A stretch of DNA of 64,000 nucleotides from Aeromicrobium sp. (GTDB taxonomy: Bacteria; Actinomycetota; Actinomycetes; Propionibacteriales; Nocardioidaceae). The DNA is taken from assembly GCA_025965435.1 (NCBI GenBank), contig JAOPWZ010000116.1, forward strand, positions 1-64,000, given 5' to 3'. The notes under the pieces are model-generated. The model was not told where the DNA came from, did no database searches, and worked only from the letters and a program-made list of their open reading frames with translations. The position numbers and the translations under genes are program-made. This document shows, one piece after another, positions 33,236 to 42,503 of this stretch (the stretch's first letter is position 1; every line of letters starts with the position of its first letter).

Positions 33236-33258
33236 GGCGGTACGAGCTTCGCGCTCGT

Positions 33259-33385
33259 GTGCTCCGGGGTCGGTGTAATTCCGAACCGGCGGTCATAGTC
33301 CGCGACCCGCGTCCCACCTCGGTGGGGCACGGTTGAGCCGGTGAAATTCCGGCACCGACGGTGAAAGTCCGGATAGGAGGAGCAT
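33259..33385 (+). ncRNA. FMN riboswitch (RFN element)
   Basis: Conserved RFN segments appear in order: a closing stem (GTGCTCC with GGAGCAT), GGGGTCGGTGTAATTCCGAA, ACCGGCGGTCATAGTCCGCGA in two parts, the GAGCCGGTGAAATTCCGGCA block and CCGACGGTGAAAGTCCGGAT. It precedes ribD and the whole riboflavin set, and FMN binding is expected to shut them down. No T-run terminator is seen between it and ribD; the 94-base stretch to the ATG has a GTGGCG/CGCCAC hairpin and the ribosome-binding site, so control is likely at translation or by Rho. Confidence 0.93.
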
Positions 33386-33479
33386 GTGTCGTGGCGCTGC
33401 GCGCCACGGCGGGCGGCCAGCACCTGGTCACCGACGAACCCCGGGGTGTGCGAGTGAGACATCACCCACCCGGAGGATC

Positions 33480-38948: not shown

Positions 38949-39953
38949 CTAGCTCGCGGCGACGCTGCGGACGTCGCGCAGCGGCACCGTGATGTGCACG
39001 TTGCCGTCGTGGCGCTCGACCCGGGCGACGAAGCCGGCCTGGCCGACGGATCGCAGCAGCTTGTCGTTCGAGCCGGCCGTGACGAAGGTCAGCCGGGCGG
39101 CGCCCTCCTGCTTGGCGACCCCTGCCGCGTACTTGACCACGCGGGTGCCCAGACCGTGGCCCTGCCAGACGTCCTCGATGATGAGCTGGAAGGTCCAGGT
39201 CGCGTCGAGGTGCTCGAGCACGCCGTGGCCGACGACGTCGTGGCCCATCTGCACCACGATGGCGGTGCCGGTGTCGGGCACGACGAGGCGTCGAGCCATC
39301 CGGGTGGTCATCGGCATCTTGAGCGGCACCTGGTACCGGTTGTACAAGGTATCGACGCTGCACCGTTCGTGCAGGGCCGAGACGGCCTCGATGTCGGCGA
39401 GCGTCGCCCGACGGACGACCGGCTCGGCCGTGCCCGGCGACGGGGTGATGAGCGGGACGTCGTTGCCGGCATCGCTGACCAGCGACAGCAGCGCCTGCGC
39501 GCGGGTCCGCTCGACCGGGGTGAACGGGATCGCGCGGGTGATGCGGAGCTCGGAGCCGCTGCGATGCGTCAGCACCAGGACGTCGTGGCCCGTGTAGTCG
39601 GCGACATCAGGGGGTTCGGTCTCCAGCAGCTCGCGCAGGACCTCCTCGACGTCCCGCTCCTCCTCGAGGATCTGGTGGACGCCCCGCAGGTAGCGAGTCG
39701 GCGGGTCGGTCAGCGACGAGTCGGTGACCCGGGTGGCCGACACCGCCGACCCCCCGGCCGCGGCGAACAGCTCGGCGACCCTGACGTCGGTCCAGCCGTC
39801 GGGTGCGCTGACGACGAACTCGTCCGTCACCCGCGGTGTCGTCGCCAGGACCTGGAGGGCGACGATGTTGAGGTCGGCGCGGCCGCAGGCCAGCGCGATC
39901 TCGGCCAGCATCCCGGGCCGGTCGTGAAGAGTTGTCCGTACGCGCCACTGCAT
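38949..39953 (-). CDS. ACT-domain / GNAT acetyltransferase fusion protein
   Basis: A 334-residue cytoplasmic protein. Residues 1-75 look like an ACT domain (MQWRVRTTLHDRPGMLAEIALACGR, only partly quoted, then ADLNIVALQVLAT), a small-molecule sensor fold. Residues about 165-330 form a GNAT acetyltransferase: VRRATLADIEAVSALHERCS, GTAIVVQMGHDVVGHGVLE, and the acetyl-CoA loop WQGHGLGTRVVKYA. This suggests an amino-acid-regulated acetylase, but its substrate is unknown. ATG at 39953 is taken as start; a GTG lies two codons earlier. No ribosome-binding site; the promoter faces that of infC. Confidence 0.75.
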   Translation of the reverse strand: MQWRVRTTLHDRPGMLAEIALACGRADLNIVALQVLATTPRVTDEFVVSAPDGWTDVRVAELFAAAGGSAVSATRVTDSSLTDPPTRYLRGVHQILEEERDVEEVLRELLETEPPDVADYTGHDVLVLTHRSGSELRITRAIPFTPVERTRAQALLSLVSDAGNDVPLITPSPGTAEPVVRRATLADIEAVSALHERCSVDTLYNRYQVPLKMPMTTRMARRLVVPDTGTAIVVQMGHDVVGHGVLEHLDATWTFQLIIEDVWQGHGLGTRVVKYAAGVAKQEGAARLTFVTAGSNDKLLRSVGQAGFVARVERHDGNVHITVPLRDVRSVAAS

Positions 39954-40053: not shown

Positions 40054-40083
40054 TTCGCAACCGGGTGCCGTCGCTGGTAGCCT
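40054..40083 (+). promoter_or_regulatory. Candidate promoter of infC-rpmI-rplT
   Basis: TTCGCA (40054-40059) and TAGCCT (40078-40083) are 18 bases apart, the best -35/-10 pair in the region. Transcription from about 40090 gives a leader of some 210 bases. Confidence 0.5.
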
Positions 40084-40170
40084 TGAGGCCGAAGTGGAGT
40101 CACCTCCCACCTGCACGGTTCACGACTGTGGGGTAAGCCAGATGTGTTGCCTGCGGTGCAGACCGCGTGC

Positions 40171-40203
40171 AAGAGGTCAATGGTTGCGCACTTTCCGGCG
40201 TGA
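40171..40203 (+). other. Possible 7-codon leader ORF (MVAHFPA) before infC
   Basis: ATG at 40180 follows AAGAGG (40171-40176) by 3 bases and a stop comes at 40201-40203, 18 bases before the terminator hairpin. Position resembles a leader peptide, but codon content shows no obvious control residue. Confidence 0.3.
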
Positions 40204-40221
40204 GTCGGGAATGTGGCGTTG

Positions 40222-40258
40222 GTGGCGTCCGTTTCGTACGGGGGCCACTTTTCTTTTT
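40222..40258 (+). terminator. Intrinsic terminator/attenuator in the infC leader
   Basis: An 11-base stem (GTGGCGTCCGT with ACGGGGGCCAC, one mismatch and one G-T pair) closes on a TTCGT loop and is followed by TTTTCTTTTT. It ends 43 bases before the infC start codon and has no gene upstream on this strand to terminate, so it most likely attenuates infC-rpmI-rplT. It is the only classic U-tract terminator I found in the window. Confidence 0.75.
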
Positions 40259-40301
40259 CCCGGAAATGTCCGTGGCCCTCCACACGACCCCAGGAGGATC
40301 C

Positions 40302-40991
40302 ATCACCACAGAGCTGCGCGTCAACGACCGAATCCGAGTGCCCGAAGTACGCCTCGTCGGTCCTGGCGGTGAACAGGTCGGCATCGTTCGTATCGAAGAT
40401 GCCCTGCGACTGGCGGCGGAAGCCGACCTCGATCTCGTCGAGGTGGCGCCCACAGCTCGTCCGCCCGTCTGCCGTCTCATGGACTACGGCAAGTTCAAGT
40501 ACGAGACCGCACAGAAGGCACGCGAGTCCCGCCGCAACCAGACCAACACCATCATCAAAGAGATGAAGTTGCGTCCGAAGATCGATCAGCACGACTACGA
40601 CACCAAGAAGGGTCACGTCGTCCGATTCCTCAAGGCCGGCGACAAGGTCAAGATCACCATCATGTTCCGTGGCCGCGAGCAGCACCGCCCCGAGCTGGGC
40701 TACCGCCTGCTGCAGCGCCTGGCCGCCGACGTCGAGGATCTCGGTTTCATCGAGTCCAACGCCCGTCAGGACGGCCGCAACATGACGATGGTGCTCGGTC
40801 CGCACAAGAAGAAGTCCGAGGCCCAGGCCGAGGTCAAGGCCGAGAAGGTCAAGAGCATGGACGCGAAGGCAGCCGACAAGGCAGCCGAAGAGGCCGAGGT
40901 CAAGGCCCATCGCGAGGCCGCCCAGGCGGTCGCCACACCCAAGAAGCCACGTCGTCGTTCAGAGAACCTCGACCCAGACATGGAGGCATAA
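40302..40991 (+). CDS. infC: Translation initiation factor IF-3, AUC start codon
   Basis: Keeps 30S subunits free and checks start codons. The frame has no ATG or GTG at the conserved N-terminus; ATC at 40302 lies 4 bases after AGGAGG (40292-40297) and yields (M)[22 protein letters not shown], matching mycobacterial IF-3. A non-canonical start permits autoregulation, known for infC in other bacteria. An in-frame ATG at 40266 without ribosome-binding site is less likely. Of 229 residues, 1-80 are the N-domain and 85-170 the C-domain; a Lys/Glu/Ala-rich tail of about 60 residues is extra compared with E. coli IF-3. Confidence 0.93.
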
Positions 40992-41185: not shown

Positions 41186-41242
41186 CCGCGTTCCACCCCT
41201 CCCACGGACTAGCAAGTCCACTGATTCTTAAGGAGAACTGAG

Positions 41243-41635
41243 ATGGCACGCGTCAAGCGCTCAGTCAATGCACAGAAGAAGCGCCGTCAGACACTCGAGC
41301 GAGCTGCGGGCTACCGCGGTCAGCGCTCACGGCTGTACCGCAAGGCCAAGGAGCAGGTCACTCACTCGCTGGTCTACAGCTACCGTGACCGCAAGGCCAA
41401 GAAGGGCGACTTCCGTCGTCTCTGGATCCAGCGCATCAACGCTGCGGTCCGCGCCGAGGGCATGACGTACAACCGCTTCATCCAGGGCCTCAAGGCCGCT
41501 GGTGTCGAGGTCGACCGCAAGATCCTGGCCGAGCTGGCCGTCAACGAGCCGGCCGCGTTCTCGGCCCTCGTGCAGACCGCGAAGGACAACCTTCCGGCCG
41601 ACGTCAACGCTCCGAAGGACGGCGCCGCGGCCTGA
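41243..41635 (+). CDS. rplT: 50S ribosomal protein L20
   Basis: Early-assembly 50S protein. It has 130 residues beginning [19 protein letters not shown], with [15 protein letters not shown] and the C-terminal [18 protein letters not shown] segment. AAGGAGA lies 6 bases before the ATG. In several phyla L20 binds its own leader mRNA; here it might act on the infC leader, but that is only inferred. The C-terminus extends about 10 residues past E. coli L20. Confidence 0.98.
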
Positions 41636-41669: not shown

Positions 41670-42503
41670 GTGGCGAGTCCTCCACCCGATCCCGGGCCAG
41701 GCGAGCTCACCGTCCGCTCAGGACGCGTGAAGCACGCCAGGAGGCTCGCCACTCGTGCGTTCCGGGCCGAGCAGCGCGAGTTCCTCGCCGAGGGTCCCCA
41801 AGCGGTGCGGGAAGCCCTCGCGCACGGCGGTGCCGTGCTTGAGGTCTTCGCCACGGTCGACGCGACGAAGCAGCACACCGACCTCGTCGCGGCCGCACGT
41901 CGCGGCGACGGCACGTGGCACGTCGTGACCGACGACGTCGTTGAGGCGATGACCGACACGGTCCAGCCACAGGGTGTCGTTGCCCGGTGCGCGATGCTCG
42001 ACCGGCCCCTGGCGGCATTGCTGGACCGGGATCCCTCGTTCCTGGTCGTGTGCGCCGACATCCGCGATCCCGGCAACGCCGGTGCGGTGATCCGCTGCGC
42101 CGACGCCGCCGGAGCCCACGGGGTGGTGTTCGTCGGCGACAGCGTCGACCCGTACAACCCCAAGTCGGTGCGCGCCACGGTCGGCAGCATCTTCCACGTG
42201 CCGATCGTCGTGGCCCGCGACATCCCCGCCTCGCTGGCGGCCCTGCAGGAGGCCGGGCTGGTCGTGCTGGCCGCGGACGGCAAGGGCGACGTCGGCCTCT
42301 TCGACGACTCACTCGACCTGTCGGTCCCCACGGCCTGGCTCATGGGCAACGAGGCGTGGGGCCTGCCCGACGACGTCCGGGCGCTGTGCGACTCGGTCGT
42401 CGCGGTGCCGATCTTCGGCCGCGCCGAGAGCCTCAACCTCGCGACGGCCGCGGCCGTCTGTCTCTACGCGACCGCCCGCGCTCGGGTGGGTCGGTCCGGA
42501 TGA
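41670..42503 (+). CDS. SpoU/TrmH family RNA 2'-O-methyltransferase
   Basis: SPOUT-fold methyltransferase, usually annotated as a 23S rRNA methyltransferase. Of 277 residues, about 1-105 form the substrate-binding N-domain (RSGRVKHARRLATRAFRAEQ) and the rest the knot: motif 1 ADIRDPGNAGAVIRCADA, motif 2 WLMGNEAWGLP and motif 3 PIFGRAESLNLATAAAVCLY. GTG at 41670 is chosen; a TTG at 41655 is also possible and neither has a clear ribosome-binding site. This gene commonly lies between rplT and pheS in actinobacteria. Confidence 0.9.
   Translation: MASPPPDPGPGELTVRSGRVKHARRLATRAFRAEQREFLAEGPQAVREALAHGGAVLEVFATVDATKQHTDLVAAARRGDGTWHVVTDDVVEAMTDTVQPQGVVARCAMLDRPLAALLDRDPSFLVVCADIRDPGNAGAVIRCADAAGAHGVVFVGDSVDPYNPKSVRATVGSIFHVPIVVARDIPASLAALQEAGLVVLAADGKGDVGLFDDSLDLSVPTAWLMGNEAWGLPDDVRALCDSVVAVPIFGRAESLNLATAAAVCLYATARARVGRSG

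Follow-up and report, generated by a model that had tools for sequence, protein, structure and literature searches.

A probable L20-type autoregulatory attenuator in the infC-rpmI-rplT leader of an Aeromicrobium species and its class

The closest described system is the L20 leader of Bacillus, in which ribosomal protein L20 binds the junction of helices H1 and H2 and the terminator is stabilised (PMC6097659; PMC10931766). The marks of this leader are an AA dimer and two consecutive G-C pairs that match the L20 site of 23S rRNA (PMC7247131), and its range has been given as Firmicutes and Thermotogales only (PMC3766115) or as a narrow distribution within Firmicutes (PMC6097659). The L20 operator of Escherichia coli rpmI-rplT, a pseudoknot with an irregular hairpin, likewise serves L20 autoregulation through mimicry of that rRNA site, but it acts on translation and leaves infC outside its control (PMC10931766). 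For Actinobacteria a 2021 study states that almost nothing is known on the autoregulation of ribosomal proteins (PMC8470358), and our literature search found no paper describing an L20 leader in these bacteria. One RNA of Streptomyces coelicolor, Scr1601, whose expression was confirmed (PMC8388888, citing the original study), is filed as RF02830, an independent small RNA gene restricted to Streptomyces and with no regulatory role assigned.

Here we analysed a window of 64,000 nucleotides from Aeromicrobium sp. (assembly GCA_025965435.1, contig JAOPWZ010000116.1, positions 1 to 64,000 of the forward strand), the source genome being 59% complete. Judging from sequence comparison, we consider it highly probable that the infC leader in this window is an L20-type autoregulatory transcription attenuator of infC-rpmI-rplT. 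The features of the locus are collected in Table 1.

Table 1. Features of the infC-rpmI-rplT locus and its leader in the window
Feature	Position	Strand	Remarks
-35 element, weak	~40054-40059	+	
Extended -10 element TGGTAGCCT	40075..40083	+	pattern TGnTAnnnT, conserved within genus
Invariant AA dimer + G (AAG)	40092..40094	+	invariant in 55/55 diverse leaders
P1 hairpin: 40096-40099 GGAG with 40104-40107 CUCC, loop 40100-40103	40096..40107	+	covariation, minimum-energy fold
Proposed antiterminator strand GUCACC in P1 apex	40099..40104	+	complementary to GGUGGC 40221-40226
P2: ACCU 40109-40112 with GGGU 40131-40134; inner stem 40114-40120/40124-40130	40109..40134	+	pairing and compensatory changes
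Intrinsic terminator: hairpin 40221-40249, T-rich tract TTTTCTTTTT 40249-40258	40221..40258	+	
Shine-Dalgarno AGGAGG 40292-40297 and AUC start 40302-40304 of infC	40292..40304	+	start conserved
infC, translation initiation factor IF3, 229 aa	40302..40991	+	Pfam IF3_N, IF3_C
rpmI, ribosomal protein L35	40991..41185	+	Pfam Ribosomal_L35p
rplT, ribosomal protein L20 (inferred ligand; third operon gene)	41243..41635	+	Pfam Ribosomal_L20

The first-pass annotation of this stretch had described a good promoter pair, about 210 nt of leader, no same-strand gene upstream, and a strong hairpin with a ten-base T-rich tract ending 43 nt before infC. The hairpin and its tract were confirmed, the stem pairing GGUGGC.GUCCG with CGGGG.GCCACU at about -18.6 kcal/mol. 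The leader length was borne out as well, since the extended -10 element places the transcription start at about 40090-40091, and the 5' end of the RNA (about 40090) would therefore lie immediately 5' of the conserved core described below. The upstream neighbour is indeed a divergent gene (ACT/GNAT, 38949-39953, minus strand). As for the promoter pair, the extended -10 element stood while the -35 element did not, being weak, and the promoter scan gave no 9-of-12 match. The pattern TGnTAnnnT was found 16-18 nt 5' of the conserved AAG in all 36 same-genus leaders, and it had 0 occurrences in the 32,668 nt of DNA upstream of these leaders. A simple terminator scan missed the hairpin of the window because the stem has an internal mismatch.

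Some other elements of the surroundings deserve mention in their own right. A small terminator-like hairpin, GGACTAGCAAGTCC, followed by a weak T run, lies between rpmI and rplT (41206-41229, plus strand), and a gene for a SpoU-type rRNA 2'-O-methyltransferase (41676-42503, plus strand) stands directly 3' of rplT and is possibly co-transcribed with it. An ordinary FMN riboswitch aptamer (RF00050, 97 bits) precedes the riboflavin genes at 33256-33388 on the plus strand.

Leaders of infC were taken from genomes of the same genus and order, and the sampling was extended to about 34 further families of the class. Scoring of 167 leader loci showed the element that occupies the 5' leader of infC-rpmI-rplT in the window to be conserved 5' of infC in 163, distributed over about 38 families. 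An intrinsic terminator, one of the features by which an L20 leader is recognised, stands 5' of infC in 135/163 of them; by the criteria set it is absent from the other 28, so that some lineages may use another read-out. Strong terminators were present in 29 of 48 sampled leaders, compared with 0-4 of 48 in dinucleotide shuffles. The consensus of the core is AA-G-N-[P1]-C-ACC-[P2]-GGU or, with P1 written out, AAG-N-[GGAG..CUCC]-C-ACC..GGU, and nearly all leaders contain AAG-N-GGAG-loop-CUCCCACC-(hairpin)-GGU. In the window G40094 pairs with C40108, and base 40095, which is not conserved, is bulged.

Analysis of the pairing in an alignment of 55 diverse leaders (alignment A1) supported the helices of this core. 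All P1 cells were paired (100%), with compensatory changes in two pairs, and the same kind of change was found in the two P2 pairs that follow the C-G pairs 40110-40133 and 40111-40132. Taken together, P1 and the outer P2 helix were paired in 97.8% of cells and showed changes on both sides in 21 cells, against 4.5 in shuffles (0/500 shuffles reached 21), and every slid control of this pairing was much worse than the true register. The inner P2 helix also covaries, and the automatic alignment places part of it out of register. The fold of the leader itself was better than that of its shuffles (z = -3.6), the minimum-energy structure including P1, P2 and the terminator. Conservation with covariance among relatives, proposed earlier as a check of the leader, was thus found, with more compensatory changes than in any shuffle. 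In other families (L062-L167) the leader is longer and has an outer stem formed by GACC, 5' of the AAG core, and GGUC, 3' of P2, with exact complements in 42 leaders; together with an extra hairpin this stem yields a multi-branch junction. The outer stem is absent in the window's genus.

The invariant letters of the leader are exactly the AA dimer, the G-C pair beside the bulge and the ACC/GGU pairs. At the H40/H41 junction of 23S rRNA, the binding site of L20, the bacterial consensus RF02541, which we read on the 23S rRNA of one same-genus genome (locus L172), runs GGU-CCCUAA-G-u-[H41]-c-ACC, with u as the bulged base and with pairs formed between G and c and between GGU and ACC. The leader resembles this junction in the AA dimer, in the G-C pair beside a bulged base, in the helix and ACC/GGU pairing and in the two consecutive G-C pairs, and differs from it by a permutation, the GGU strand lying 5' of the AA dimer in the rRNA and 3' of ACC in the leader. 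P1 corresponds to H41 of the rRNA and, in the Bacillus L20 leader, to helix H1. The marks published for the L20 leader (PMC7247131) were all found in the actinobacterial leaders, the AA dimer in 55/55 and the C-G pairs 40110-40133 and 40111-40132 in 55/55 and 54/55, respectively.

The comparison with Bacillaceae comprised 80 infC loci, of which three were scanned with Rfam and have a leader that is RF00558. All 80 leaders contain AAG-N-[stem]-CACC, and their cores, AAG-N-[AGAAGC ACCC GCUUCU]-C-ACCUG..CAGGU, have the same architecture as those of actinobacteria. Reciprocal searches with a covariance model built from actinobacteria only (R1) and another built from Bacillaceae only (R2) recovered the H1/H2 junction architecture in both directions: R1 gave 47 matches at E up to 1 on 230 kb of Bacillaceae infC loci, all of them at the leader, and R2 gave 29 matches on 78 actinobacterial sources, of which 28 coincide exactly with the core and one lies within 5 nt of it. 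On the window R1 had a single significant match (40090-40142, E 3e-10; next E 0.03), while R2 reached a weak 6.4 bits, nevertheless the best match of the stretch, and the tie of the window to the Bacillus leader is hence made mainly through R1 and the window's relatives. The Rfam model for the L20 leader, to which the first-pass annotation had pointed, did not recognise the window: RF00558 stayed below its cut-off there despite the matching architecture, and it gave no match above cut-off in 40 genomes of the class. Both leaders share the operon, the core, the downstream terminator and the complementarity between the P1 loop and the 5' arm of the terminator. The actinobacterial leader differs from RF00558 in being GC-rich, in its P1 stem of 4 pairs instead of 6, in a loop that varies in both sequence and length, in covariation with the terminator, whereas the Bacillus loop is nearly fixed as ACCC, and in the outer GACC/GGUC stem added in many families.

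Because the core matches, residue for residue, the L20 site of both 23S rRNA and the Bacillus leader, L20 is by far the best candidate for the ligand, a choice that had earlier been left between L20, IF3 and ribosome stalling. An attenuator whose P1-P2 domain responds to something else, be it IF3, another ribosomal protein or a ribosome-assembly factor, appears improbable to us. It would agree with infC being the first gene and with enterobacterial IF3 regulating its own synthesis (PMC10931766), but the invariant residues coincide with those of the L20 site on 23S rRNA and of the L20 leader in Bacillus; moreover, IF3 binds 16S rRNA, and its control can work through the AUC start without any need for P1-P2.

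The start codon of infC in the window is AUC (at 40302) and not AUG, and this is so in 161/163 leaders, the remaining two having AUA and AUU. In 58 leaders the stretch from the last in-frame stop to the AUC contains no ATG, GTG or TTG, indicating that this rare start is real. In E. coli the autocontrol of IF3 acts through a rare AUU start. The conservation of a rare start codon points to autoregulation of IF3 at translation, and by analogy with enterobacteria, where infC of E. coli is under the control of its own product (PMC10931766), a second tier of control in which IF3 limits its own translation at the AUC start is plausible. Apparent AUA starts of infC were seen in three genomes of other classes (L193, L196 and L187). 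Two further candidates in this part of the leader were rejected. Masking of the Shine-Dalgarno sequence (40293-40297) by CCUCC at 40277-40281 is possible in 32/36 same-genus leaders, yet not clearly above shuffles (28/36 with 6 pairs against 33% in shuffles, the sequences being related), and a likeness of CACCUCC to the 3' end of 16S rRNA was dropped, as it falls partly inside the loop, which varies between families.

Under the L20 reading, the P1-P2 domain would mimic the H40/H41 junction to which L20 binds on 23S rRNA. With L20 in short supply, the terminator 5' arm would pair with the P1 loop as it emerges, formation of the hairpin would be blocked and transcription would read through into infC-rpmI-rplT. 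When L20 exceeds free 23S rRNA, the protein would bind the P1-P2 junction, the loop-arm pairing would be lost or disfavoured and the terminator would form, with the synthesis of IF3, L35 and L20 very likely being halted. Both the binding of L20 to this leader and its favouring of termination are inferred, the direction of the effect being borrowed from Bacillus.

The loop-arm pairing recurs across families with different letters: CCACC/GGUGG in the window's genus, CCAUC/GAUGG (L048), GUCGUC/GACGAC (L056), GGCCUGAC/GUCAGGCC (L057-L060), GGCUCC/GGAGCC (Streptomyces-type L080), GCCCGA/UCGGGC (L090), GCCUGC/GCAGGC (L096) and GCCUCGG/CCGAGGC (L147). With one leader taken per family, own loops performed better than shuffled ones in 20/20 draws, with no more than 2 of 500 shuffles reaching the observed value in any draw and z between -3.2 and -5.3. 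When the loop was set against the rest of its own leader, the terminator arm was the better pairing partner in 28 of 29 families. The family-wise comparison of own with foreign loops was less sharp (21/29 families, Wilcoxon p 0.026), the 8 families without a better-than-foreign match including notably those with very short loops. Given the complementarity of the P1 loop and the terminator 5' arm, and their covariation from family to family, the pairing of the two is likely the antiterminator. This may apply to the Bacillus leader too, in which the complementarity was found in 79/80 Bacillaceae leaders despite the nearly fixed loop.

In the window this pairing is short (6 pairs, one of them G-U) and weaker than the terminator, which would agree with a leader that does no switching at all and holds a constitutive partial terminator, or gives rise to a stable small RNA acting in trans; the discrete short RNA of Streptomyces (RF02830; PMC8388888) would also agree with this. 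We give such an explanation only a slight chance, as a constitutive terminator leaves unexplained the rRNA-like core, the covarying complementarity of loop and arm, and the fixed place 5' of infC throughout the class. The window is below the gathering cut-off of RF02830, which was reached in three loci, L080, L086 and L123, called Streptomyces on the strength of the Rfam match only, and in these the model takes in the 5' domain and extends as far as the U-tract of the infC terminator. On this sequence evidence Scr1601 is the infC leader in Streptomyces, its 3' end at the U-tract being that of a terminated leader, and it could be reclassified from small RNA gene to cis-regulatory element. Attenuation by a ribosome stalling on a translated short upstream ORF and so selecting the antiterminator, as amino-acid operon leaders of actinobacteria can do (ilvB1 of Mycobacterium tuberculosis; PMC13236596), is most improbable because no upstream ORF is conserved before the terminator among the 36 same-genus leaders, only 9 of which have a Shine-Dalgarno-preceded start with an ORF of at least 4 codons, at differing places, and because the P1 loop length shifts by 1-2 nt between close species.

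The attenuator for IF3, L35 and L20 first proposed from the window is thus supported by the class-wide promoter, core and terminator, by loop-arm covariation and by Scr1601. Within the class R1 found strong sites, with E from 1e-13 to 1e-5, and all that were checked lay at infC. In other classes of the phylum a match just 5' of infC was obtained in 4 of 20 genomes taken in order, and in 6 of 10 genomes preselected for already having matches, suggesting that the leader reaches beyond the class in a less uniform or more divergent form; weak model matches away from infC in these classes were discarded as chance.

Whether the likeness between the leaders of Bacillota and Actinomycetota reflects common ancestry is a matter on which we incline slightly to doubt. 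It is conceivable that one L20 leader, combining the rRNA-mimicking core with the loop-terminator switch, is common to both by descent, and the likeness may also be convergence forced by the mimicry of rRNA. If ancestry is the right explanation, this would be among the oldest ribosomal-protein leaders known, in which loop and terminator arm drifted together while the L20 site stayed fixed. These results suggest that an L20-type leader is present in essentially the whole actinobacterial class, as opposed to surveys in which the motif is nearly Bacillus-type-only. The infC leader would account for Scr1601, an orphan 'sRNA' of Streptomyces, and provides a circuit, open to testing, by which three translation genes may be controlled.
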